A stretch of 52,384 nucleotides of DNA. Origin: a virus. The stretch spans positions 1-52,384 of the IMG/VR virus record IMGVR_UViG_3300044998_000632. One strand, written 5' to 3'. The first letter of the stretch is position 1, and each line of letters starts with the position of its first letter. Below the pieces are notes generated by a model. The model did not search any database and was not told the origin of the DNA. It saw only the letters and a list, made by a program, of their open reading frames with translations. The translations under genes were made by a program, and so were the position numbers. Shown here in pieces: positions 19,918-51,646 of this stretch.

Positions 19918-21309
19918 ATGCTCGACCCATCGATCCCCCGACTGCAATCCCAGCTTCAAAAGCTGCCCGACGCGCAGCTCGCCCGCCTGTTGTCGGGTGG
20001 GGATACGCCCGTGCCGCCGTTCCTTGTCTTGGCCGAGATGGAGCGGCGCAAGTCGATGCGCAACCGAGCGCAGGCACAGACCCCGCCAGGGACGATGGTG
20101 AGTGAACTCACCGATGGCGGCGGGATCGCCAAGTTCGCCGAGGGCGGGACGGTGGAATCTCCTGGGCTCAACCGAGTCGGGCGGTATCTCGTCTCCCCCC
20201 TGTGGGGATTCATGCAAGACCTGCAGGACACCGCCTCGCGCAACCTGGAAGACTACACGCTTCGACGTAGGAAGGAGTTGGGGCATTTCGATCCGCCGCG
20301 TCCGGCTCACATGACGCCGCAGCAGATCGAGCGTGCGGTCAAGCCCGCGCCTGCGCCCGCCATTCTCGTGGATGCCGCACCAAGCGGCAGCATGGGAGGC
20401 GGTATCGGGGGCGAAATGCCGAGCTACACCCCGCAGTACATCGAGGTTCCGGAAGTCCGTGACATTGAGTATTACCGTGGGCAACTCGGACCGACGCCAC
20501 AGATGCAAGCGGTGACCCCGGAACAGCGCGACGCCATCCGCAAGAAGCTGCAGAGCGAATACGGTTACGACTGGTCGAAGGAGCGTCAGGCGCAGGACGA
20601 ACGCCGCCAAGGGCTCGCCAAGATGAAGCGCGACGGCGCCAACCAAGCGCTACTGCGGCTAGGTCTGGGGATGATGGCCACACGCGAGCGCAACGGGCTG
20701 GCTGCCATCGGGCAGGCCGGGCTGCCGGCGCTCGATGCGTACGCTCAGGCGCAGCAGGCGGCACGTGCCGAGGCTGCGGCCATTCAGCGCGGCGACTTGG
20801 AAATCGCTCGCGCCGCCAATGCCGAGAAGCTGAACTTCCTGGCCATGGCAGATCGGCAAGCTGCGAGCGAGAACGATGTCGCGTTCCGTAACGCAGCGGC
20901 GCAGGGCCAGCACACGCGCAGCGCGATCGACCTGCGGCGCGGGGACATCGAGCGCAATGAGGCGGCGCTGCGGTACAACCTGGGCGAATCCAACGCTGCC
21001 CGCCGGTTCAATTTTGCGGCGACTCGGGCCGGGCGTGCGCCGGCCATCGAGATGGCACCGTCGCCGTGGGCATCCGAGGCGTTCAAGCAGGCTTCCGCGG
21101 CGCTTGAAGCACGCTACGCGGAGCTTGCGGCTCGGGCGAAGAAGGGTCCGCAACTGACGCGGGAAGAGTTCGCCGAGATGAACCGGTTGGCGGACCCCAT
21201 GGTGCGCGTGCGCTTGGCGGGGGAAGCGGCGCAGCGCGTGGCGCCGATGTACATGAAGCGTGGTGGAATCAGCGCCATCCCGGCGGAAACCCCCGTCGCC
21301 GAAGAGTGA
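19918..21309 (+). CDS. Coiled-coil internal virion protein
   Basis: 463 residues. The N-terminus has RLQSQLQKLPDAQLARLLSG then GGGIAKFAEGGTVESPG, another copy of the FAxGGxV motif. The C-terminal half is a long Ala/Arg/Glu-rich coiled coil (AAAIQRGDLEIARAANAEKL). Consistent with an ejectosome protein. It ends one nt before the giant gene's start. Confidence 0.65.
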   Translation: MLDPSIPRLQSQLQKLPDAQLARLLSGGDTPVPPFLVLAEMERRKSMRNRAQAQTPPGTMVSELTDGGGIAKFAEGGTVESPGLNRVGRYLVSPLWGFMQDLQDTASRNLEDYTLRRRKELGHFDPPRPAHMTPQQIERAVKPAPAPAILVDAAPSGSMGGGIGGEMPSYTPQYIEVPEVRDIEYYRGQLGPTPQMQAVTPEQRDAIRKKLQSEYGYDWSKERQAQDERRQGLAKMKRDGANQALLRLGLGMMATRERNGLAAIGQAGLPALDAYAQAQQAARAEAAAIQRGDLEIARAANAEKLNFLAMADRQAASENDVAFRNAAAQGQHTRSAIDLRRGDIERNEAALRYNLGESNAARRFNFAATRAGRAPAIEMAPSPWASEAFKQASAALEARYAELAARAKKGPQLTREEFAEMNRLADPMVRVRLAGEAAQRVAPMYMKRGGISAIPAETPVAEE

Positions 21310-21310
21310 C

Positions 21311-24300
21311 ATGGCCGGCATCACCGATTACAACGCCAACTTTGTCCGGCCGTACGACCCGGGGCTCGTTCGACGCCGCGCGCAGGCATTGCAGCAGCCG
21401 ACTCCGTACGACGACCTGTTCATCAAGTATGGTCGGATGTATGGGATCGACCCGATCGAGCTGAAGCTGCGCGCTCTGGTCGAGTCGGGGTTCAATCCGA
21501 CCGCCCGCAGCCCCGCGGGCGCAGTGGGGCTGATGCAGTTCATGCCGTCAACGGCTCGTGAGCTTGGCATCAACCCCATGAACCCGGAGGAAGCAGTCAA
21601 GGGCGCGGCGCAGTTGATGGCCGAGGCACTGAAGTCGACTGGCTCGATGCGCGGCGTCGACATGACGTACTACGGCGGGCCGAATCCGAAGCAATGGGGG
21701 CCCAACACCCGGCAGTACGCAGCCAACCTTGATGCAGTCCGCCGTGCGGCGGGCGTAGGAGGCGGCGAAGTTCTGGATGACGACGACCCGCGGCTGATGC
21801 AGCCAACGGGCGGCGCCCGCCCACTGCGGTTCATGCACCCGGAAACGGGAGAGACGTTTGCGTTCCCTGCGGGCACGACCGGGGAGCAGGCACGCGCGCT
21901 GATGGACGCGAAGTACGCCCAGCGCGAGCAACAGGCGCAAGCGCGAGCAGCGGAAGAAGCCAAGGCGTACCGGCAGTACCTGCGGGACAACAACAACGCC
22001 ATCGCGTCCGGTGTACGCCGCGGCATCGGGCAACTCCCTATTCTGGGCGCACAGGCGCTCGCGGCGGGGGCCGGGACACTGGGTGCGACCGGAGTACGCG
22101 ACTCACTGCTGGATGCGGCCGCGCAACGCCAAGACCAGCTTAACCAGGACGCGCCGCAGTTGTACGACTCCTTCATGGAGTCTCCCCTGGGCTACCTCGG
22201 CGAGCGCCTTGGCGAGCAGGTTCCCAACATGGCCGCGGTCGTGGCTGGCGGCGGCATCGGCGGACTCACTGGGCGGGCGCTCGTCGCCCGTTCAGCAGCG
22301 GGTGCAGCGAGGCAAGCCGCAGCACGCGCCGCAACGACTCGACGGGGCGCCATTGCCGGCGCAACCGTGCCGTCCTACGGGCTACAGGCGGGAGAGAACT
22401 ACGGCTCGTACGTCGATGAGTACGGCGTCGACAAGGCCAGCCCCGGAGCCGCCCTGCTGGGTGCAATCCCGCAGACGGCGCTCGATGTGTGGGCGCTCGG
22501 TCGGCTGGGACGCATGCTGACCCCGCAAGAAATCAGCTCGCTGAATCCCATGCAACTTCGCCGGCTTTCACGCGAAGGTATGGCCATGCAAGCGGCGCGC
22601 GGCGCTGCGCGCGGCCTTGGGCGTGGGGTGGTCATCGAAGCCCCCACGGAAGCTGGGCAGGAATCGCTCAAGTACGCCTTCGGCGACATGTCCCAAGGGC
22701 AGGCGCCAACTGCGTTCCTGTCTGATCCGGAGAAGCGCGCGCAGGTCGGTGAGGCGGGTTTCGTGGGCGGGCTCACTGGCGGCACCATTGGCGGCATCGG
22801 GGGCGGCATTGGCGGTGCGCGTCGCCCCGCCCTTGCCGCGGAGCGGTTCCAGGCGATGCGCGAGGGCCGCAGGAACGAAGTGGAAGCCCGGGTGCGCGAT
22901 GCCAAGGAGATGGGTCCGCCAGCGCCGTGGGGCGCCAGCACGCCGCTGCCAGGCCCCCCGGAGCGAGTCGGTCCTCCGGCCCCATGGGAGGCTGCGTTCC
23001 CGCCTGCGGGCATGCCAGCGCCGCAGCCGCTGCAGCTCGGCTATGACCCGATGGCCGACTTCCGTCAGCGCGCTGCGGATATGACTGCGGCCGCCAACGA
23101 GCCGCGCAACATCGTTGAGAGCGTCCGCACTCCGGGGCAGGGCATGGCAGGTCCGCGGTTCCCGCAGCTTGGCATGGACCCCGAGGCGATCGATCGCGAG
23201 CGTAGCGCTCGTGAGCGCGCGGTGCAAAACCAGATCGCCCTGGAGACGGCGAAGCAGAACGTTTTAGCGCGTCAGCGTCAGAGCCAGGAACAACTCGCAG
23301 CGCTGCAGCGGCTCGAAGGGGAGCGGCAGGATGCTCGTCGCCAGATCGACGACCTGACACCACGCCAACTGGACCTGGTGGCTGATATGGGTCGAGGCGG
23401 GGCGCGGCCGTTGGCGCGGCCGTTCGAAGACCCGTACGTCCCGCTGAACGAGCGCGATCCGATCCTGATGCGGTCGACGGACGAGGAGACAGCATCGCTG
23501 CCTGGAATGGAGCCCGCGCTGCTGGACGATGGTGTCCCCGGTACGCGCGACGAGACCATGGCGCTGCTGCGGCAGGCGGGCATCGTGGCTGACGGTGACG
23601 TCCGCCCGGCAACGGTGCGCAACCGTTCCTTCGGTCTGCCTGGACCGACCACCATGCCGGGGCCGACCGGCATGAGCCCGTATGACCGTGCGGCTCGTGC
23701 GCTCGGCGAGCGGATGGCCAGCAACGCTGGTCCGGAGGGCTACAGCCTCGCGAGCCCTGAGGGGCTCGCCGGCGTCTACAACGAGCTGGTGAATCTGCGC
23801 GCCATACTTGCCCGCCAGCAGCGCACCATGGGTCGTACCCCGCGCCGGGAGCGGCAAGCCCAAGCCCTCGATGCGCTGATCAATTCGGTGCGCCCAACAG
23901 AAGCCCCGTCCGGTCCGCGCACCGCCCGGCCAGATGCGGACACTCCGATCCGCCGCCCCACGCGCGAAGAGCGGGAGACGTCTCGCGCGCAGGCCCGCGA
24001 GACACCGCGGGTCGCAGGGATTCCCGCCGCTGCGCAGGATGTCGCGCAGGTCGCGGACAAGGTGCGGAGGGACGTTGCCGAGGGCCGCGTGCTGGGCGAC
24101 CCGGTCAAGGACGAGAAGACGGGCGAGATGCGCCCGCGTACGCTGCGCGACCTGTTGACTGGGCGCAAGTACACAGAAGCCAAGACTCTGGCCAAGGAGC
24201 AGGAGCGCCTGCGAGCCACGCCGGAAGAACTCGCTGCTGGGCAGAAGCTCTGGGACAGCGTCGTTCCGGCGGGCAATCTGAAGTGGAGTGATCTTCCCGA

Positions 24301-27300
24301 GCCCCCGGTGATCGAGATGGACACCGGCAAGGAACTCACGGGCGGCAAAGGCAAAGCGAAAACGGAAGTCGACCAAGCGATCGTCGACGACGTGCGCAAC
24401 ATGTTTGCGCTGTGGAATGCGACTAACCCCCGTGCGACGCCGGAGCAGGTTCGGCAGTGGGTGACGGATGCAATCAACGACGTGCGCCAGCCCACGCTAG
24501 CCAAGCGCGACATCGGACCCAAGGCTCAACGAAAGCGCAAGGACTCGGAAGAGGACATGTTCGAGTCCCTCGCCGACTCCGAAGAGTCGCTGATCAAGGA
24601 CATCGAGCAGCAACTCAAGAAGCCTGGGCTGCGTCCCAAGCAGCGAGCTGAGCTGGAAGTGGCGCTGGAAGACGCCCGGGAAGCGTTGCGCAAGCTCCGC
24701 GAAGACGAGAAGGCATCGAATGCGCGCGAGGCGACGCGGGAGCCCGCAACACTTGCTGCGCCCCTGAACTGGAACTCGGCGGTCGACCTGCTGACGCAGA
24801 ACGGCGCCGCTCTGTTCGATGACCGGCCGTCGTCCACACCGCCGCTGAGATCGCGCCGCAAGGCGACCAAGGCAAAGAATTCGCTCGAAGAGCGGCGTCG
24901 CGCGGCGCAGGAAAAGATCCTCGCGATGTTCCGGGAAGCCGCGGAATCAGTTGATGCCGAGCCCACGGATACGGTCGACGACATCGAAGCCAAGACCCGT
25001 CGCGCAGCACTCTTACTGCCGAAGGGCGCTGGCACGCCGATGCGGCGGTCGGACCATGCGGACACTGCGACGCGGCTACGTCGGCTGGCTCAGGCGCGCT
25101 TGCCGGATGCCAACATCGTGGTGGTCGCAGACCGCGCGGAGCTGACCGATCCAGAAGCGCTGGCGGCGTTCGATGCCGGCGAGCTTGGACTCGCTGCATC
25201 GAATGGTTCGGCGTACGTGTTCGTCCCCAACCACCGCACCATCGAGGATGCGGAGGTAACGCTATTCCATGAACCGGGCCACCTGTTCATGCGGGCGGTG
25301 CCGGTATCAGCGCTGGCGCGCATGATGGAGCCGTTCCGAGCAAACCAACAGGTACAGAAGCTCAAGGACGCATGGCTGGCCAACACGGCCAACCGCGAGC
25401 GCATGGCGCAGCGGCCTGGCTACGACTGGGATACGCACGCCACGGAAGAAGCCATCGTCGAGTTCGGGCAGACCGCGTTCGGCAAGCCCACCATCACGGC
25501 ACTTGCTGCGCGGGTGATCAACTGGGTGCGCCGGCTTGGCGGCAACCGCTTGGCTGACTTCCTGGCGGGCCGCAACGACAAATTGCAGGTGGTCGAGTTC
25601 TTGATCGAGATGCGTCGGCGCTACGCCGAGGCTGGTGCGCCGAAAGGACCGCCGGGGCCGTCGCGGTTCCGTACGCCTACCGAGGGCAATCTCACCTCGA
25701 CCAGCGCGTCAGACCTGGAGGCAGACCGCCGGCTGAACGCCGCAGTCGACAGGGCTATCGGAAGTCGCGGAGAGCTGTTCCGCGCTGCATGGGGAAACGC
25801 GACCGGCCGAGCCGGTCGCGCCGCTTTGATGTCGCTACTTGACCTGCGCTCCCTCGGCCGGCTATTGGATGACGTGGCGTCGCAGGCAGGGATCGACCGC
25901 TTCCAGGGCGTTGGCATGCGCATCTACAACCTGCTCAACCAGCAGGATGCCGTGGACCAGGGCGTGCGCGCCACGTTCATGCGCGACGCCATCAACCCGC
26001 TCGTGGAGCTTCGCAACGCCAACCAGCCGATGTTCGAGCGCGTGCAGTCGATGCTGTACAAAGCGTCGTTCATGCGGTTCGATCCGCGCACCAAGGTCCA
26101 GGAAGAGGGCAAGGGCAGCCCCGAAATCCGGGCGCAGCGCCTTGAGCTGCAGCGGCAGTACAACGCACTGAATCCACAGGCTCGACGCGCGTTCGACCAA
26201 GTATTCGATTCCACCCGCCGGTCCTTCGAGGAAATGACCAGCCAGATGCGGGCACATGCCGAGCGGATGCTGGCGGCTGCGAAACAGACAGCCGCCAACG
26301 CAACGCCGGACGAGCGCGCTGCAGCGCAGGCCGATGTGCTGCGGCGTGTCAATGGACTGGAGAAGCTGAATCGGGCCATCGAGGAGCTGGGCAACGTCAT
26401 GCCCTACGTCCCGTTCCGTCGTGCGGGCGACTTCCTGATCTCATACATCCACCCGAGTACCAAGGTTCCCGGCGTGCGGGCGTTTGAGACCGCGGCGCAA
26501 CGGGATCGGGCATTCGATGCCATGCGCCGCCTCGGCGTCAAGCAGGCGGAGAAGTTCAACCGCTACGAGGAGCCGAGCAAGTTCTTCGATTCCTTGGACG
26601 CTACCACGAAGTCAGTGATCCGCGCACTGCGTGAAGCCCGCGGCGTGGATCCCGATGCGCCGGCCACTCCGTCTGACCCGTCGGAAACTGGTCGCGCGCA
26701 GCGCGGCGACCCCACGCCCGAGGAGGTTCGTGAGGCTGTCTTCGCGCAGATCGAGGACAACATCATTGACGTCCTGCGTTCGATGTCGCCGGCGGGGCGC
26801 ATGTTCGATGCGGCGATGAAACGCGAGAACTACCCTGGCTTCGACGAGAACATCCTCGAAGCCCTCAGTGCATACGCCACCTCGGCGGGCCGCAACATGT
26901 CCAATCTGCTGACGGGTGCGGAGATCGGCGAAGCGTTTGCTGACGCAAACCGGATGCGCGCCGCGTCTGTCACCCGGCCGGGCATGGAGGTCAACGACCC
27001 TAGCACAAAGACGTATCTCACCGACGATCAGCTCGACAGCGTTCACGCCGTTGTCGGCGAGTTGAACAAGCGGCGAGAATTTCTGATGGCGCCGTTCTAC
27101 TCGCCGGTGGCCAATACGCTGACCAAGGGCGGCTTCTACTTCTTCATGGGGCTGAACCCGTCATCTGCGCTACTGCAGGCGTTCCAGATGGTCATGGTGC
27201 AGGCCCCGGTTCTGGCAGGACGCTACGGGGTTCCACGGGCGTTTCGGTCCATGTGGAGCGCGGCCACCCGGGTCTACGGCACTGAGGCACCGCTGCGGTC

Positions 27301-28747
27301 GTTCCTGGATAGCGGCGAGGGTTATCGGTTGGCCCGGTACGACGCCACGATGCTCAACCCGGACGGATCGGCTAAGGAGGGCGCGGACACGTACACCCGC
27401 GACTATGCGCGCTTGCGCACGAGCAGCCGCCGAACGGATCAGTACCGGGCGATGATGGTCGACATGCTGCGCCGAGGCATCATGAACGACCAAGCGACGC
27501 AGGAGCTGAACGACATGCGAGAGGGTAAGGACCCGACTCGCGTGGCTGCCAAAGTTGAGCACTACATGTCGCTGATGATGAAGCACATGGAGCAGACCAA
27601 CCGCATGGCGTCGACTATCGCCGCGTTCGATCTGGCTGCGCGCCGGGGTCGTTCGTGGGAAGACGTGATGAACGAGGTAGAGCAGGCGGTGTACGAGGGA
27701 CACGGCAACTACAGCGCCCTCAACTCCCCGCGGCCGTGGCACAGCAACACCGGCAAGGTGCTGTTGCTCTTCCGCAAGTTCGCGTTCCACATGTTCACTA
27801 CGATGGGCATGATGGTGCGCGACTACATCCGCGCGCAGCGGGGATCCCAGGAACGCCGCGAAGCGGCGACCAAGCTGGGCATGATGCTGCTCACGACCGG
27901 TGCGCTGACGGGCGCTGCGGGGCTGCCGCTATACGGCGTAGCACAGACGCTCTTCCAGATGTTCCAGTCTGCATTCGGAGACGAGGAAGAGACTCGCAAC
28001 CTGACGATCGCGCTGCATAAGTGGGCCGAGGAGAAGGGCGCGAATCGGGAGCTGGTGAACGTGGCCATGGGCGGCATCCCGAGCTTGCTGGGCTTGAATC
28101 TGACCAGCCGGCTGGGCTATGCGGACGTGTTCTTTCGCGACCCGGACGAGAACCTGGATCAGAAGAAGGCTCTGGAGTGGGCCGTGCAGACCATCGGCGG
28201 TCCAATGTACGGCGCAGGCGCACAGATTGCTCGCGGCATCAGCAACGTGGCCAACGGCAACATCATGCTCGGCGCCAGCGAGATGGTCGGCGCAATGCCG
28301 CGCAACCTGGCCAAAGGGCTTGACATGTACATGAGCGGCGAGGTGACGACGCGCCGCGGCGACGTGATCGCAGAGGTGGGCGCGGGGGATGCACTGCTCC
28401 AGGCATTCGGCTTCGTCCCCGGCGACGTACAGCGACAGCAGCAGATCATCTTTGCCGCCAAGGCGGCGGACGTGCGGCTGAACTCGATCCGTGCCGAGGC
28501 ACTGAATCTGTACCGCAACGCCTACGCCATCGGCGATGCGGACATGATGGAGCGGGCGAAGACGGAAATCGAGCGGGTCAACGCGATCGCCGCGCGAAAT
28601 AATCTGCCCAAGTACCGCATTACGCAGGATACTCTGACTCGGTCGGTGCGGGCTCGATTCGAGAACGACGAGAACTTCGTCAGCGGCGTTCGGTTCGCCC
28701 CTGCCACAGCCCCGGCAACCGCCAGCATTCGGGCACTGATCCAGTGA
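21311..28747 (+). CDS. Giant internal virion protein: lytic transglycosylase + HEPGH motif + LPD-type domains
   Basis: 2478 residues. Start ATG 21311 (one nt after the upstream stop). Residues ~30-150 form an SLT-type lytic transglycosylase: Glu58 in LRALVESGFNP, GLMQFMPSTA at 73-82, YYGGP later, expected to open peptidoglycan during DNA entry. Residues ~230-1300 are Arg/Glu/Pro-rich. An HExxH motif, HEPGH at residues 1320-1324, precedes a Glu pair at 1379-1380, a gluzincin-like layout. Residues ~1600-2200 resemble large polyvalent protein domains (YVPFRRAGDFLISYI; NTGKVLLLFRKFAFHMFTTM) with hydrophobic segments that could insert in membrane. The function is inferred by analogy to podovirus ejection proteins; whether the metallopeptidase site is active is unknown. 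Confidence 0.78.
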   Translation: MAGITDYNANFVRPYDPGLVRRRAQALQQPTPYDDLFIKYGRMYGIDPIELKLRALVESGFNPTARSPAGAVGLMQFMPSTARELGINPMNPEEAVKGAAQLMAEALKSTGSMRGVDMTYYGGPNPKQWGPNTRQYAANLDAVRRAAGVGGGEVLDDDDPRLMQPTGGARPLRFMHPETGETFAFPAGTTGEQARALMDAKYAQREQQAQARAAEEAKAYRQYLRDNNNAIASGVRRGIGQLPILGAQALAAGAGTLGATGVRDSLLDAAAQRQDQLNQDAPQLYDSFMESPLGYLGERLGEQVPNMAAVVAGGGIGGLTGRALVARSAAGAARQAAARAATTRRGAIAGATVPSYGLQAGENYGSYVDEYGVDKASPGAALLGAIPQTALDVWALGRLGRMLTPQEISSLNPMQLRRLSREGMAMQAARGAARGLGRGVVIEAPTEAGQESLKYAFGDMSQGQAPTAFLSDPEKRAQVGEAGFVGGLTGGTIGGIGGGIGGARRPALAAERFQAMREGRRNEVEARVRDAKEMGPPAPWGASTPLPGPPERVGPPAPWEAAFPPAGMPAPQPLQLGYDPMADFRQRAADMTAAANEPRNIVESVRTPGQGMAGPRFPQLGMDPEAIDRERSARERAVQNQIALETAKQNVLARQRQSQEQLAALQRLEGERQDARRQIDDLTPRQLDLVADMGRGGARPLARPFEDPYVPLNERDPILMRSTDEETASLPGMEPALLDDGVPGTRDETMALLRQAGIVADGDVRPATVRNRSFGLPGPTTMPGPTGMSPYDRAARALGERMASNAGPEGYSLASPEGLAGVYNELVNLRAILARQQRTMGRTPRRERQAQALDALINSVRPTEAPSGPRTARPDADTPIRRPTREERETSRAQARETPRVAGIPAAAQDVAQVADKVRRDVAEGRVLGDPVKDEKTGEMRPRTLRDLLTGRKYTEAKTLAKEQERLRATPEELAAGQKLWDSVVPAGNLKWSDLPEPPVIEMDTGKELTGGKGKAKTEVDQAIVDDVRNMFALWNATNPRATPEQVRQWVTDAINDVRQPTLAKRDIGPKAQRKRKDSEEDMFESLADSEESLIKDIEQQLKKPGLRPKQRAELEVALEDAREALRKLREDEKASNAREATREPATLAAPLNWNSAVDLLTQNGAALFDDRPSSTPPLRSRRKATKAKNSLEERRRAAQEKILAMFREAAESVDAEPTDTVDDIEAKTRRAALLLPKGAGTPMRRSDHADTATRLRRLAQARLPDANIVVVADRAELTDPEALAAFDAGELGLAASNGSAYVFVPNHRTIEDAEVTLFHEPGHLFMRAVPVSALARMMEPFRANQQVQKLKDAWLANTANRERMAQRPGYDWDTHATEEAIVEFGQTAFGKPTITALAARVINWVRRLGGNRLADFLAGRNDKLQVVEFLIEMRRRYAEAGAPKGPPGPSRFRTPTEGNLTSTSASDLEADRRLNAAVDRAIGSRGELFRAAWGNATGRAGRAALMSLLDLRSLGRLLDDVASQAGIDRFQGVGMRIYNLLNQQDAVDQGVRATFMRDAINPLVELRNANQPMFERVQSMLYKASFMRFDPRTKVQEEGKGSPEIRAQRLELQRQYNALNPQARRAFDQVFDSTRRSFEEMTSQMRAHAERMLAAAKQTAANATPDERAAAQADVLRRVNGLEKLNRAIEELGNVMPYVPFRRAGDFLISYIHPSTKVPGVRAFETAAQRDRAFDAMRRLGVKQAEKFNRYEEPSKFFDSLDATTKSVIRALREARGVDPDAPATPSDPSETGRAQRGDPTPEEVREAVFAQIEDNIIDVLRSMSPAGRMFDAAMKRENYPGFDENILEALSAYATSAGRNMSNLLTGAEIGEAFADANRMRAASVTRPGMEVNDPSTKTYLTDDQLDSVHAVVGELNKRREFLMAPFYSPVANTLTKGGFYFFMGLNPSSALLQAFQMVMVQAPVLAGRYGVPRAFRSMWSAATRVYGTEAPLRSFLDSGEGYRLARYDATMLNPDGSAKEGADTYTRDYARLRTSSRRTDQYRAMMVDMLRRGIMNDQATQELNDMREGKDPTRVAAKVEHYMSLMMKHMEQTNRMASTIAAFDLAARRGRSWEDVMNEVEQAVYEGHGNYSALNSPRPWHSNTGKVLLLFRKFAFHMFTTMGMMVRDYIRAQRGSQERREAATKLGMMLLTTGALTGAAGLPLYGVAQTLFQMFQSAFGDEEETRNLTIALHKWAEEKGANRELVNVAMGGIPSLLGLNLTSRLGYADVFFRDPDENLDQKKALEWAVQTIGGPMYGAGAQIARGISNVANGNIMLGASEMVGAMPRNLAKGLDMYMSGEVTTRRGDVIAEVGAGDALLQAFGFVPGDVQRQQQIIFAAKAADVRLNSIRAEALNLYRNAYAIGDADMMERAKTEIERVNAIAARNNLPKYRITQDTLTRSVRARFENDENFVSGVRFAPATAPATASIRALIQ

Positions 28748-36366: not shown

Positions 36367-36391
36367 TGATGGGGTCACCGTGACCCCGTGA
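36367..36391. promoter_or_regulatory. 25-bp palindrome copy A (2 mismatches)
   Basis: Inner arms GGGGTCAC and GTGACCCC around a central C are perfect; the outer left bases TGAT differ from the TCAC seen in the five full copies. It lies just after the HNH stop and 16 nt before the 56-aa gene start. Confidence 0.8.
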
Positions 36392-42899: not shown

Positions 42900-42924
42900 T
42901 CACGGGGTCACCGTGACCCCGTGA
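42900..42924. promoter_or_regulatory. 25-bp palindrome copy B
   Basis: Perfect TCACGGGGTCAC - C - GTGACCCCGTGA. Lies 4 nt from the stop of 42929-43213 and 35 nt before the ATG at 42864. Confidence 0.92.
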
Positions 42925-44965: not shown

Positions 44966-45985
44966 TCAGTGTGCTTTCATGATGTTGCGAAGTTCCTGGA
45001 CCTCGGCGCTACCAGTTTCCTCGTCCGCGCCGTCGAGCGGGTCCTGCGCATTGTCGGCGCTGAGCGTATACCATTCGAGCAGGTCATCGAAGTCGCACAT
45101 GCCGGCTTCCAGGTACTCAATCGTCGCCGTCAACTCCACGAGTGCCTCGTCCGCAGACAGGTGTAACACCGGCAAGATGTCGAGCAATTCTTCCTCGGTG
45201 GCGTAGACCTGCAAGAAGCGACGCGCGGACGCATCCCCGTGCCGGCTGTAGTCCTCCACGAGGTCGAACAACTCCACGAGCTTCGCTGCCAGCTCCGTGT
45301 GGGCGCGGAACGAGTCACCCACGGCGTCGACGTCGGTCACGACGTTTTTCTTAGGCGGCGTCCATGACGGGAAGCCGGGTTCGTCGCTCCAATCGTGGAA
45401 GCTCATCCGACCCGAGCCGTACACACCCCACAGATGCGGAGTCCATGCGTAGGTGTTGCTGAACCAGCAACCGGGGAACATATCCGTCGTGACGCCAGCG
45501 CTCTCGTTGACCAACAGCAAGCCGTGCTCGGCGTGGATGAAGATGAAACGGTTCTGGCGGCCGATGTGTTCGCCGATCATCTGCCGGACCAACGGCTCAT
45601 GCACCACCGGTGCGACCGCCACTCCGTAGGTGCGGGCGTAGATCTGTGTGTCGGACTCCTTGGTGGTGTCGCCGCCAATCGACAGCACGCCGTTGTGCAT
45701 GAGGTAGAGCTTGCCGTCGTGAATGGCGTAGGGATGCACGCGCTCCAGGTCGACCGCGCCGTGCGTGCGCATGCGCCAGTGCAGTGCGTACTCGACCCCC
45801 CGCGGAGCGTGCTCCAGCCACCACAGACGGGCGGCGGCCGCATCGGCCGGCAGCGTCTTCTCGACGATGATCGTGCCGTCCTTCACGTAAGCGATGCCGA
45901 GACCGTCGGGGTTTTTGCGGAAGCAGTCCTCGAACCAGTCGGCAGGAAAGACGGTATCGGGGGCGACTTTGACGAGCAAACACAT
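44966..45985 (-). CDS. Class II glutamine amidotransferase-like protein (copy 2)
   Basis: 339 residues starting MCLLVKVAP: Cys2 becomes the N-terminal nucleophile after Met removal, the hallmark of class II (Ntn) glutamine amidotransferases. Other matching positions: NPDGLG at 25-30, YALHWRMRTHG near 66-76, LYLMHNGVL around 93-101, SDT at 111-113. A C-terminal acidic helical region (EALVELTATIEYLEAGMCDF) is specific. It would release ammonia from glutamine for the amidoligase next to it. Second copy of a pair; the first is at 47536-48723. Confidence 0.85.
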   Translation of the reverse strand: MCLLVKVAPDTVFPADWFEDCFRKNPDGLGIAYVKDGTIIVEKTLPADAAAARLWWLEHAPRGVEYALHWRMRTHGAVDLERVHPYAIHDGKLYLMHNGVLSIGGDTTKESDTQIYARTYGVAVAPVVHEPLVRQMIGEHIGRQNRFIFIHAEHGLLLVNESAGVTTDMFPGCWFSNTYAWTPHLWGVYGSGRMSFHDWSDEPGFPSWTPPKKNVVTDVDAVGDSFRAHTELAAKLVELFDLVEDYSRHGDASARRFLQVYATEEELLDILPVLHLSADEALVELTATIEYLEAGMCDFDDLLEWYTLSADNAQDPLDGADEETGSAEVQELRNIMKAH

Positions 45986-46009
45986 GATCGATTCTCCTTC
46001 TTGGTTGAG

Positions 46010-47509
46010 TCAGTTGCAGAATTGGAACTCGCGCCGAGCGTTGTAGGCGAGTTTGGCGAGGTCGGGAACTACTGGTACGAGTCGCGACTGCACGGGGCGC
46101 GCAGTCAACAGCCGCCGCAGTGCGGCCGTGCAAGTGCGGTCCATGTCCATGACGTGCGAGACGAACTGCGACATCGTGGGCTCGGACAGCAGTACGTCGG
46201 TGGAGCGGACGCGGAAGAAATCCACCAGCGCATGAATGAACTGGAACTGAGCCAGTGCCCCGATGAACCGCGGCTGCGCGATGGGGCGGCGCCACTCATA
46301 AGTGGCGGCGCCTCGCTCCAGCCGCGAAAGGTTGACTTCATAGTACCGGGTCAGGTTCGACGTGAGGCTGCCGAGACCCGCGCGCCTGACCAGCTCCCCC
46401 CACGGAAGCGAGAACTGTGGCGGCATCTTGTGGCAGTAGCGGGTGTTGGGACGCCCTGCCACAACGGCGTGTACCTCGGTATTACGAGCAAGGAACGCGG
46501 CCAGCAACGCGGCATACATCAGGTCCGGGATGCGACCGTACTCGCCGATGTGAACGTGCATGCCGGCACGGCGCGACCTTCGCCATGCGATTCGCGGCGC
46601 GTACACCCGACGCATGGCGTCCACCACGTCCTCGTATGCACCGAAGCCGGTGACGACCTCGAATCCTTCATTGATGGACCCATCGCGCTCGATATTGATC
46701 TTCTCCTTCGCGTTCATCTTCACCCAGGTGAGCGCCACGTCCCGGGACAGTGCTCGCGATGGCAGAAGCTCCAACTCGACGCCGAACGTAGGCCCCTTGT
46801 AGTTGGGGTCGCGCAGCCCCACGAGATCGCAATAGCCGGACCGTTGGGTTGAATGGTACTCGTTGCACCGCAGGGTGTTGAGCATCCAAGTCACCCTATC
46901 AGGCGCTCGCGGGAAGTGGGAGATCGCGAGCGGGTCCAGGTCACGCACCGTGACGCACTCGCCATCGGATGACACCATAACTGCAGTCGCGCCGCCTGCC
47001 TGCCTGCGAATCCACTGGCGCTTTTGGCCCGGCATTTCTATGGGCACGAACTCCTTCAACATGCATCGCACACACTTGGCGTGCCTCACGCCGCTCGTGT
47101 CGCAGTGCAAATGTCCGTCGGCGTACTCCAGATGTCCGCACGCGGCACGGGAGTAGGAGCGGCTGAACACGTGGTACGCGGCGCCGGAAAACGCCATGAT
47201 GTCGTCCTCGGACGCCGCGGAGGAGTCCAGCCGCGGCCGCGTCAAAAGCGCTGCCACGGATTCAATATCCGGCATTCCGGGCCGTGAGAGCCGAACCAGA
47301 TGTGCCCGCATCGCCGCGGTGTACGCCCGTACGTTGCGCAGCTTACGGAGCTCGCTGAACGACCGGTAGGTGCCGTCGCGGCTCGTGCGCTCATTGGCGC
47401 GCATCTGCTGTCGAATGCACTCCCGGGCCAACCCCACGCCACCGACGGCGAACGTGTGCATCAGAGGCGTCCGGGGATGCCGGCTCGGAGAACTGTAGTT
47501 GAATGGCAT
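46010..47509 (-). CDS. Amidoligase-like protein (copy 2)
   Basis: 499 residues with an AAGGAG site. The C-terminal half has Amidoligase_2-type (COOH-NH2 ligase, glutamine-synthetase-fold) motifs: FGVELELLP at 242-250 with the E-x-E pair, ERDGSINEGFEVVTG at 274-288, GMHVHIGEYG at 316-325, and RYYEVNLSRL ... YEWRRPIA. The N-terminal ~230 residues carry a Cys/His cluster (CGHLEYADGHLHC, KCVRCM) of possible zinc type. Predicted to join a carboxylate to an amine or ammonia using ATP. The substrate is unknown. Confidence 0.8.
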   Translation of the reverse strand: MPFNYSSPSRHPRTPLMHTFAVGGVGLARECIRQQMRANERTSRDGTYRSFSELRKLRNVRAYTAAMRAHLVRLSRPGMPDIESVAALLTRPRLDSSAASEDDIMAFSGAAYHVFSRSYSRAACGHLEYADGHLHCDTSGVRHAKCVRCMLKEFVPIEMPGQKRQWIRRQAGGATAVMVSSDGECVTVRDLDPLAISHFPRAPDRVTWMLNTLRCNEYHSTQRSGYCDLVGLRDPNYKGPTFGVELELLPSRALSRDVALTWVKMNAKEKINIERDGSINEGFEVVTGFGAYEDVVDAMRRVYAPRIAWRRSRRAGMHVHIGEYGRIPDLMYAALLAAFLARNTEVHAVVAGRPNTRYCHKMPPQFSLPWGELVRRAGLGSLTSNLTRYYEVNLSRLERGAATYEWRRPIAQPRFIGALAQFQFIHALVDFFRVRSTDVLLSEPTMSQFVSHVMDMDRTCTAALRRLLTARPVQSRLVPVVPDLAKLAYNARREFQFCN

Positions 47510-47535
47510 AGGTTGCTCCTTGTAGGTTCAATTGA

Positions 47536-48723
47536 TCAAACACCGGCCGGGGTGTCGGCCACGAGGCACAGATCATGCACCCGCTTCTCTGCGGCCTCCA
47601 GTTCACTTGCGAGCGCGACTGCGCTCGTGAACATGTTCCACTTGCGCTGAACACCGCACAGGGCTTCGTGGAAATCCAGGATCGCTTTCTTGCGCTTGTC
47701 CGTCGTCATGCTCTGAAGGCTGTCGGTGAAGGCGATCACATCCTGCGGTAACGCGCCACTCCACCCCACTGTGGCCAGCAGCAACGTGGACACCGTCCAC
47801 AGATGAGATGGTGCGGTCGTCATCGGCAGCAACTCGACATGGCGCATCAGTGTCTTGACCGCAGAGGCCAGGTCGGCAGGCAGGTGACTCGCCCAGGTGT
47901 AGTTGCGCGGGATGTAGATCATCTCCTTTCCGGTAAGCCCGCGAAACTCCAAGATGCGCAGATCACCGAACTGCGAAGAGTGCGAAAGCTCCCCGAAGGG
48001 CGCAGTCGAAGGCGCAGTCGAAGGCGCAGTCGAAGGCGCAGTCGAAGGCGCAGTCGAAGGCGCAGTCGAAGGCGCAGTCGAAGGCGCAGTCGAAGGCGCA
48101 GTCGGACGCGGGAATGACGTGTATCCCCACGTCGGCCGCGCAAACTCGGGCAGCGAAGGCCACAACGTGTGGTCGGTCACCGCGTAGTTGTTGGACAGCA
48201 GCATGCCGTCGCACTCGAACCAATCCTTGCGGTTGAGCACGTGGAAATGCTTGCGCCCGGCATCGAGGAGCAGGATGCGGTTCTCGCCGATCGCCCGCTC
48301 GATGAACTTGATGACCCCGCTGCACTCCAGCGCATCGGGGCGCATCTGGTCGAGCAAGTCGGCCAGCAGGCGCGTATCACTGGAACCGCGCCTGAGGTCG
48401 GCATCCACCAGCCGGGACGGCAAGGTTCCGTTGTGCATCATGGCGAATCGCGTGCCGAACGCGAAGGGATGCACATTGGCGAGGCTGCGCGACCCCCTCG
48501 TCACGCGGCGGAAGTGCAGCGCATAGGGCGTGTCGCTGGGCCGCCACCGCTCGATGAACTTCACCACGTTGGAGGGCTTCGTCGCCAGCGTGCGAGCCGT
48601 CACCGGCGTGCCGTCGTCGCTGGCAAACATGATCCCCGTGCCGTCGGGGTTGTACTTCATGGCGTCGGTGATCTGCTCTGGAGTGAGCCTCCTGCCGGCG
48701 GGGATGTGGATGATCAAGCACAT
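47536..48723 (-). CDS. Class II glutamine amidotransferase-like protein (copy 1)
   Basis: 395 residues. The start is set at ATG 48723, not the GTG 6 nt upstream, because this leaves Cys2 as the N-terminal nucleophile (MCLIIHIPAG). Signature positions align exactly with copy 2: NPDGTG at 25-30, ALHFRRVTRG around 68-77, MMHNGTL at 95-101, SDT at 115-117. The middle carries a nine-copy TAPS repeat. It should supply ammonia from glutamine to a partner ligase. Confidence 0.86.
   Translation of the reverse strand: MCLIIHIPAGRRLTPEQITDAMKYNPDGTGIMFASDDGTPVTARTLATKPSNVVKFIERWRPSDTPYALHFRRVTRGSRSLANVHPFAFGTRFAMMHNGTLPSRLVDADLRRGSSDTRLLADLLDQMRPDALECSGVIKFIERAIGENRILLLDAGRKHFHVLNRKDWFECDGMLLSNNYAVTDHTLWPSLPEFARPTWGYTSFPRPTAPSTAPSTAPSTAPSTAPSTAPSTAPSTAPSTAPFGELSHSSQFGDLRILEFRGLTGKEMIYIPRNYTWASHLPADLASAVKTLMRHVELLPMTTAPSHLWTVSTLLLATVGWSGALPQDVIAFTDSLQSMTTDKRKKAILDFHEALCGVQRKWNMFTSAVALASELEAAEKRVHDLCLVADTPAGV
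47999..48106 (-). repeat. Nine 12-bp repeats encoding TAPS
   Basis: GGCGCAGTCGAA on the + strand occurs eight times exactly and once with one change, giving nine tandem four-residue TAPS units in the amidotransferase (copy 1). Absent from copy 2. A linker expansion in the middle of the protein. Confidence 0.92.
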
Positions 48724-48765
48724 GTTCACTTTCCTTTCGTTGGTGAGTTGGTTGATGGAACGGTT

Positions 48766-48790
48766 TCACGGGGTCACGGTGACCCCGTGA
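48766..48790. promoter_or_regulatory. 25-bp palindrome copy C
   Basis: Perfect TCACGGGGTCAC - G - GTGACCCCGTGA. Between amidoligase copy 1 (stop 3 nt away) and amidotransferase copy 1 (start 42 nt away). Confidence 0.92.
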
Positions 48791-48793
48791 CTG

Positions 48794-50452
48794 CTACGCC
48801 CTGGCATACGCCTGCTGGGCTTGCGCCTTGCGCATCTCGGCATTGCGCAACTCACGCAGGCGGGGGGCGAACGCCAGCGACTCGGGATGGTCGACGATGT
48901 AGTGTCGCAGCGTCTTCGTGTTGCGCCGCAGGTACGGATCATCAACCAGCGCGTTAGCGAACCCGCTCGCCGTGAGCGGGTTGCACGCGACGGGGTCGCA
49001 ATACTTGGTCAGCGCCCACACCAGTTCAAGTCGCGCCTTGATGCGCCGCGACCGTCCCGTGCCGGCGAAGATGCGCCACTCGATCGACCCATCACGGCGG
49101 ACATTGATCGCGTTGTAGCGATCGACCGGGCTGCCGAACTGCCGCTTCCAGGCGTCCTTGAGCACCTTGCGCGCCGCGTGCCCGCACAGCGGGTTGCGTG
49201 CATACGAGTTGAACCCGCGGCCGAACAGCGGGCGCAGGAAGGGATAGTTCTCCCCGGCGCAGACGGCTCCGAAGAGCCGCTCAATGTGCGCCTCAGGCAG
49301 GCTGCTCGTGCTGATGTGCAACCCGCAATGGTCGGTGTTGTATCTGTAGTCCCGGACGATGCCGCCGAGCCTGTCCGCCCAGTTACGCACCGTGCCAAGC
49401 GTGGACCACCCGGTGATGATCTCTACTCCGTTGTGCTCGTCCAGCGAGGCGTCCTGTTCGAGTACGACGACCGAAGACAAGTCGTCCGAGTCCATGACAT
49501 CGTCCACGAACGAACTGCGCCCCTCGACGTTGAGTTCGCACTCGAAACCGAGGGTGAGCGTATCCACTTGCAGCGGGTCGTCGTAGTGCGACGCGTGACG
49601 CCGGACGGCCAGTTGCCGCTGACGGCTCCCGCTGTGGTACTCGTACAACTGCGGGTGCCCCGTGCCGTCCTCGTCCTCGTCTCCGTCCTCGTCTCCGTCC
49701 TCGTCTCCGTCGGGGTAGATGTCTTCGAGGGAGTCGAGGGCGGGGTCGAAGTAGCTGTCCGAGCGGACGTCGTACCGCAGCGCGTTCATCGCGAACTCTC
49801 GCGACGCGATCGTGGTGCCGTAGAACTCGATCGTGCGCTCCCCGATCAACGAACTCACCTGCCACACGGACTGGCTCTGCCACCGCGTGACGGGAAGCCC
49901 GCCGATGCAGCCCACTGCGACGAGACACGCGCCGTACTTCGGGATCACCCGGAGTTCGACCTCGCACGTCACGTACTTGTCCCCGAACGCAGCGAGCAGG
50001 CGAGAGCCCAGGCAGGACTGGGGAGTGATGAACCGCGTCTTCAGGAGGTGGTTCACTGCCGGCTGGCATTCCGACAGGTCGAGATCGAATCGGTTGCTCC
50101 CCGCCCAACGACCGATGTCCCGGAACTCCCGCCGGTAGCCGATCGGCCGCGTCCGGGCAGGGGTGTTGACCGTGTCGGTCGCGATGTCGCGGCCGACTGC
50201 GAGCATGTTGCTCGCGAAGTTCACGACGCGGCCGACTGCGAGCATGTTGCTCGCGAAGTTCACGACGCGGCACATGCGGTCGAAACTTTTCCAGTCGCCA
50301 TCCAGCGTGACGACGTACGGTGCGGCGGTCTCGACCACCCGGACGGTGGGGTCGCGGCGCACGAGCACCGCCGCGGCCTGATGGAAGTAGTTGAGCACGC
50401 GAGCGTGCAGCCACGAGCACACGCCCGAGTTGAAGTTGAAAGTGATACGCAT
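48794..50452 (-). CDS. Amidoligase-like protein (copy 1)
   Basis: 552 residues from ATG 50452, preceded by GGAAAGGAAAGGAAAG; the longer frame to 50497 would start inside a palindrome. C-terminal amidoligase signature: GFECELN at 302-308 (E-x-E), EQDASLDEHNGVEIITG at 332-348, CGLHISTS at 376-383, and RYNAINVRRDGSIEWRIFAG later. The N-terminal 300 residues are unassigned, include a perfect 13-residue tandem duplication, and an acidic linker (DGDEDGDEDGDEDEDG). Partner of the class II amidotransferase just downstream. Confidence 0.8.
   Translation of the reverse strand: MRITFNFNSGVCSWLHARVLNYFHQAAAVLVRRDPTVRVVETAAPYVVTLDGDWKSFDRMCRVVNFASNMLAVGRVVNFASNMLAVGRDIATDTVNTPARTRPIGYRREFRDIGRWAGSNRFDLDLSECQPAVNHLLKTRFITPQSCLGSRLLAAFGDKYVTCEVELRVIPKYGACLVAVGCIGGLPVTRWQSQSVWQVSSLIGERTIEFYGTTIASREFAMNALRYDVRSDSYFDPALDSLEDIYPDGDEDGDEDGDEDEDGTGHPQLYEYHSGSRQRQLAVRRHASHYDDPLQVDTLTLGFECELNVEGRSSFVDDVMDSDDLSSVVVLEQDASLDEHNGVEIITGWSTLGTVRNWADRLGGIVRDYRYNTDHCGLHISTSSLPEAHIERLFGAVCAGENYPFLRPLFGRGFNSYARNPLCGHAARKVLKDAWKRQFGSPVDRYNAINVRRDGSIEWRIFAGTGRSRRIKARLELVWALTKYCDPVACNPLTASGFANALVDDPYLRRNTKTLRHYIVDHPESLAFAPRLRELRNAEMRKAQAQQAYARA
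50191..50268 (-). repeat. 39-bp perfect tandem duplication
   Basis: Two identical 39-bp units (50191-50229 and 50230-50268) in the amidoligase copy 1 gene repeat 13 residues in frame (RVVNFASNMLAVG). No change of frame. Appears recent. Confidence 0.93.
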
Positions 50453-50493: not shown

Positions 50494-50518
50494 TCACGGG
50501 GTCACGGTGACCCCGTGA
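50494..50518. promoter_or_regulatory. 25-bp palindrome copy D
   Basis: Perfect TCACGGGGTCAC - G - GTGACCCCGTGA, 41 nt before the amidoligase copy 1 start. The TGA of the membrane-protein gene at 50502-50714 lies inside the repeat. Confidence 0.92.
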
Positions 50519-50948: not shown

Positions 50949-50973
50949 TCACGGGGTCACGGTGACCCCGTGA
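50949..50973. promoter_or_regulatory. 25-bp palindrome copy E
   Basis: Perfect TCACGGGGTCAC - G - GTGACCCCGTGA, 35 nt before the first early gene. Confidence 0.92.
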
Positions 50974-51489: not shown

Positions 51490-51514
51490 TCACGGGGTCA
51501 CGGTGACCCCGTGA
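51490..51514. promoter_or_regulatory. 25-bp palindrome copy F (leader)
   Basis: Perfect TCACGGGGTCAC - G - GTGACCCCGTGA in the early leader. A further 6-bp hairpin (CCTGCC/GGCAGG, 51518-51537) lies directly next to it. Confidence 0.92.
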
Positions 51515-51617: not shown

Positions 51618-51646
51618 ATTATATCGTATATACCCCCCCTTGTCAA
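51618..51646 (-). promoter_or_regulatory. Consensus sigma-70 early promoter (leftward)
   Basis: On the - strand, TTGACA at 51646-51641, a 17-nt spacer containing a G-tract, and TATAAT at 51623-51618: both hexamers and spacing are consensus. The surrounding sequence is AT-rich in an otherwise GC-rich genome. It points into the entire early operon and should be recognised by unmodified host RNA polymerase. Confidence 0.88.

Follow-up and report, generated by a model that had tools for sequence, protein, structure and literature searches.

Why would a phage carry two amidoligase genes, each followed by a gene for a class II glutamine amidotransferase (GAT), and on what might two such pairs act? 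The question arises from IMG/VR virus record IMGVR_UViG_3300044998_000632, which was analysed over its whole length (positions 1 to 52,384; 52,384 nt, hereafter the window). The original prediction, made from the sequence alone, read the order ligase, GAT-II, ligase, GAT-II on the minus strand in an early operon, and suggested a dedicated pathway modifying a peptide, a protein, an envelope component or a DNA base, through two different substrates or through successive steps.

Results

The order is as predicted: four consecutive minus-strand ORFs run from 50452 to 44966, encoding an amidoligase, LigA (48794..50452, 552 aa), a class II GAT, GAT-A (47536..48723, 395 aa), a second amidoligase, LigB (46010..47509, 499 aa), and a second class II GAT, GAT-B (44966..45985, 339 aa). 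Gaps of 26 nt and 24 nt separate GAT-A from LigB and LigB from GAT-B, and one of about 70 nt, with a palindrome inside it, separates LigA from GAT-A. LigA begins with an ATG at 50452, just after a GGAAAG-rich ribosome-binding stretch. All four ORFs have coding-type composition (GC of 0.79-0.87 at codon position 3 and of 0.41-0.52 at position 2). HMMs made solely from other phages' proteins, tested on the 373 window ORFs of at least 80 aa, matched GAT-B at 3.7e-33, GAT-A at 2e-31, LigB at 1.2e-17 and LigA at 3.5e-15, with no other ORF of this set better than 0.27; because these window-free profiles pick exactly these four ORFs, the observation goes beyond chance. The plus strand carries structural genes and the minus strand replication genes (primase/helicase, SNF2-type helicase, DNA polymerase), and no integrase was found in the 52-kb record; the description of the phage as podovirus-like is plausible, on gene content only. 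Elsewhere in the record, a short plus-strand gene (2407-2784) matches the co-chaperonin GroES phage family phrog_3188 (E 1.2e-5) and has counterparts, at about 40%, in several single-pair phages, and a predicted virion protein of 2495 aa (21260-28747) has an SLT transglycosylase domain at its N-terminus.

Assignment of both GATs to the class II glutamine amidotransferases holds, on HMM evidence, on a Cys2 conserved in 81/81 aligned GATs and on the other invariant residues. The predicted motifs are there in both proteins (Met-Cys start, NPDGxG at 25-30, LH(F/W), HNG at 97-99), as is SDT, at 111-113 in GAT-B and 115-117 in GAT-A. GAT-A lies above the Pfam GATase_4 cut-off (25 vs 23 bits); GAT-B alone falls below the curated cut-off (E 0.011), its family matches, and all 8 members of the alignment designated A1 match GATase_4 at E 0.1 or better. 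The GAT profile also matches the glutaminase domains of GlmS and PurF among solved structures. None of the 81 GATs departs from the Met-Cys start, from the Asn that opens NPDG, or from HxRxxTxG, NG and D, and GAT-A and GAT-B share the full set (Cys2; N; H, R, T and G; NG; D), in which R-x-x-T, NG and D serve glutamine binding and the oxyanion. The closest relatives of GAT-B are 38-41% identical to it. In GAT-A, a (TAPS)n linker leads to a C-terminal region with no assigned domain; the linker (47999-48110) is built from a 12-nt unit, present in about nine copies that are all in frame, and is probably variable in length.

For the ligases, the predicted motifs (E-x-E, D(G/A)S, (F/V)E(V/I)(V/I)TG and (M/L)H(V/I)) likewise occur in both proteins. 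Pfam's own Amidoligase_2 model, PF12224, matches neither LigA nor LigB, although it matches 31 of the 33 ligases in alignment A7, that is, all but these two. The Amidoligase_2 assignment nevertheless holds, despite the lack of a direct PF12224 match, through the window-free HMM, through hhalign to a PF12224-type set (97.5% for LigA; 94.6%, E 7e-8, for LigB) and through the fold. Both proteins carry the residues that are identical in all 78 ligases compared (DxS, E, H, R and E-x-R), and both keep the E-x-E pair, whose conservation had been put forward as a check; the second His of HxH, kept in 76/78 ligases, is intact in LigB and replaced by Ser in LigA. AlphaFold models, of good quality in the catalytic domains only, have a mean pLDDT of 68 for LigB and 61 for LigA, rising to about 80-95 over most of the LigA catalytic domain (about residues 300-540), with the N-terminal ~290 aa of LigA, to which no domain was assigned, modelled at low confidence; the LigB catalytic domain covers about residues 240-470. 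In Foldseek searches against the PDB, the LigB model matches glutamine synthetase, YbdK and Dop, and the LigA model YbdK, glutamine synthetase, Dop and PafA (E about 1e-5 for both), so that both catalytic domains are predicted to fall in the glutamine-synthetase/gamma-glutamylcysteine-ligase (GS/GCS) fold, as the prediction had it. Inclusion of the poorly modelled N-termini keeps the TM-scores low (about 0.3), and matches of this kind between models and structures indicate a shared fold rather than a close enzyme: identity to YbdK, glutamine synthetase and PafA/Dop is roughly 8-15% in the fold matches, and the window ligases have no sequence-level match in the PDB. Outside the catalytic domains, LigB has a cysteine cluster at about 124-149 (possibly a zinc ribbon), and the N-terminal part of LigA contains an exact 39-nt in-frame tandem duplication (50188-50265; VVNFASNMLAVGR twice) and an acidic DGDE repeat (49665-49718).

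The proposal of an early operon is supported by gene order and by an upstream sigma-70-type promoter, TTGACA-17-TATAAT (51618..51646, minus strand), which matches the consensus at 12/12 positions and reads into the leftward early genes; the phage is GC-rich, and one such perfect site was found, with 1.2 expected for looser matches. Both pairs are thus probably expressed early in infection, as judged from these signals. The early region also carries five copies of a near-perfect 25-nt palindrome, TCACGGGGTCAC(S)GTGACCCCGTGA, at 42900-42924, 48766-48790 (in the LigA/GAT-A gap, 43 nt 5' of the GAT-A ATG), 50494-50518 (42 nt 5' of the LigA ATG), 50949-50973 and 51490-51514, with an imperfect sixth copy at 36367-36391. 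Because it is predicted to form a strong RNA hairpin but lacks a U tract, the palindrome may act as an operator or belong to a 5' leader. The identical 25 bases occur in one unrelated IMG/VR contig (L105, 855-879).

With three related ligases as queries, we found 230 relatives in IMG/VR, of which 80 were taken in, and 10 in genomes, and compared 102 loci, some of which overlap in contig. A same-strand GAT directly follows the ligase in all of them except two truncated ones, and the gap, with the ligase upstream, does not exceed 79 nt in 96 of the 100 loci measured; this near-constant adjacency supports a functional partnership. A single ligase-GAT pair is therefore a widespread known module, found for example in MEP401/402 of Methylophilales, in Podoviridae ctgrD200, in mycobacteriophage Marvin and in IMG/VR loci L010-L093, where, as in the window, a ligase (a PF12224 member in these phages) lies just 5' of a Met-Cys GAT-II, with the same catalytic residues and near replication genes. 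What is new here is the tandem of divergent pairs. These single-pair phages have one pair per locus, as do the 102 loci generally (Stenotrophomonas phage StenR_269 has an extra GAT); the arrangement ligase-GAT-ligase-GAT occurs in the window and in 0/102 other loci, and 17 IMG/VR records of 45-65 kb, searched entire, each hold one ligase and one GAT. Single-protein scans of viral contigs returned no close relative of LigA, GAT-A, LigB or GAT-B, and known phages gave no near DNA match to the window.

Doubling of the module does have a precedent in the cultured Acinetobacter phage vB_AciJM_313 (PX050566.1; L008, L106, L107). About 13 kb lie between its two distinct pairs, and the terminal repeat places a copy of one of them at each end of the genome. 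Its pairs are unlinked and clear paralogues (GATs 46% and ligases 37.5% identical), whereas those of the window are tandem and divergent. In StenR_269 a PF12224 ligase shares one cluster with two GAT-II genes, another gene there being annotated as glutamine synthetase, but the order differs (GAT, putative ligase, ATP-grasp, small genes, amidoligase, GAT) and a GGCT gene lies nearby. The original prediction's implication that the arrangement stands without context was too strong, given that pairs are common in podoviruses, that a hypothesis has been published and that vB_AciJM_313 sets a precedent.

A recent tandem duplication is ruled out by the 29% identity of GAT-A to GAT-B and by the ligases, which align to each other only at E about 0.02. 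In the full tree GAT-A and GAT-B do not group, although an AU test does not reject their grouping (p 0.35); LigA and LigB do group, but on very long branches, and support is weak once other long branches are removed. With branches of this length, both an ancient duplication and a separate gain would be compatible with the trees. The outer genes, LigA and GAT-B, lie nearer the mainstream family by HMM and BLAST than the inner GAT-A and LigB. One IMG/VR contig (L051) shares with the window the order ligase, GAT, VRR-type nuclease, DNA polymerase (polymerase 41% and nuclease 47.5% to their window counterparts) with a single pair at the matching site, so that this site probably held one pair ancestrally, to which the second was added.

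Discussion

In both enzyme families the chemistry is familiar: the GAT frees ammonia from glutamine, and the ligase amidates a carboxylate using ATP. We consider it probable overall that the ligase and the GAT of each pair form a two-subunit, glutamine-dependent amide synthetase made early in infection, with the envelope as the likeliest target; the place of one vB_AciJM_313 pair in the terminal repeat counts in favour of this reading. Under this scheme the N-terminal Cys of the GAT-II, exposed once Met is removed, would set ammonia free from glutamine; its ligase partner, which has the glutamine-synthetase/gamma-glutamylcysteine-ligase fold, would activate a carboxylate with ATP to an acyl phosphate; and the ammonia would convert the acyl phosphate into an amide. 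Having produced both synthetases early, the phage might amidate the envelope, for instance free carboxylates of the peptidoglycan stem peptide, and thereby block competing phages or their lysins. The parts of this scheme differ in strength. Ammonia transfer within each pair is very likely. That the two pairs serve distinct substrates is an evenly balanced proposition; two different carboxylates, rather than redundancy, are suggested because the pairs have retained their catalytic residues despite wide divergence. The host envelope is the leading target, if a tentative one, and that both enzymes amidate two carboxylates of a single target, such as the peptidoglycan stem peptide, is decidedly improbable. 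Three points count against this scheme: the chemistry of LigA may differ, as its sequence lacks the second His of HxH; the palindrome parts LigA from the other three genes, which leaves the assignment of each GAT to its ligase tentative; and accessory genes of LUZ24/RIO-1-type "wall" cassettes are missing or unseen.

The wall has been proposed before: host wall modification or superinfection exclusion was predicted for the module (PMC10580990, PMC5498523), both papers drawing on predictions by Iyer and Aravind, and the literature searched yielded no experiment on isolated ligase or GAT genes and no demonstrated substrate. The "peptidoglycan modification" cassette of LUZ24, RIO-1 and phiEco32 resembles the window in having early podovirus amidoligases and GAT-II (PMC3890496, PMC5498523), but it also includes ATP-grasp and GGCT genes, usually with one GAT, whereas GGCT (PF06094) is absent from the window record in a search whose controls gave matches. 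An ATP-grasp (R2K_2) search matched nothing in the record and nothing among its own controls. The endolysins of 23 pair carriers (a set of carriers only, without controls) were of GH19 type in 8/23 and contained Amidase_2 in 1/23, from which we draw no conclusion about a peptidoglycan-peptide target.

Alternatively, one could envision the pairs amidating a small-molecule immune signal, or proteins of the host or of the phage itself, in counter-defence or host takeover. The ligase fold is common to PafA and Dop, whose substrate is a protein, and the early position of the pairs would suit such a role, as would the vB_AciJM_313 pair that lies within a terminal repeat; T5-like phages place early genes in the terminal repeat. 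Counter-defence, however, has no direct link to any defence system, and we regard this explanation as possible but rather unlikely. PADLOC returned no match for LigA, GAT-A, LigB or GAT-B, which also counts against this explanation; on the same result we rejected the idea that the genes themselves constitute a defence system.

It is also conceivable, though unlikely, that only one set is enzymatic and the other is a diverged remnant or has a structural or regulatory role, with variants in which LigA pairs with GAT-B or all four proteins form one complex. The position of LigA and GAT-B nearer the mainstream family would fit this, as would the motif His lost from LigA, but all four ORFs are intact, with coding-type GC3 and their catalytic residues kept, and LigB, the most divergent overall, retains the HxH missing in LigA.

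We give very little credence to a third alternative, in which the pairs modify phage DNA, amidating a hypermodified base or attaching an amino acid to it, as protection against restriction. Class II GAT domains are present in phage base-modification enzymes (Gat-QueC) and the pairs adjoin replication genes; however, a whole-record family search with working controls found neither QueC nor a thymidylate-synthase-type enzyme, and the scanned genes showed no transglycosylase or nucleotide-modifying partner, so that for a DNA base, among the substrates originally suggested, we found no evidence. Just as improbable is a role as auxiliary metabolic genes aiding host nitrogen assimilation, the label given to the same gene types in Phage-ZRK32, which promoted host growth on nitrate or ammonium (PMC10945688), because that work tested the entire phage rather than individual genes, a GAT uses up glutamine with no obvious net gain of nitrogen, and the glutathione-type partners it names were not found in the window (no GGCT).

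Amidoligase-GAT pairs are widespread in phages and were predicted in 2009, and the main value of the tandem pairs is as a handle on what this phage module does. That a phage keeps two such dissimilar pairs next to each other points to specialisation for different substrates; were both to act on two sites of one target, this would be the first such system doubled in tandem. One ligase subfamily alone has 230 relatives in IMG/VR, so that an answer to the question of substrate would apply broadly.
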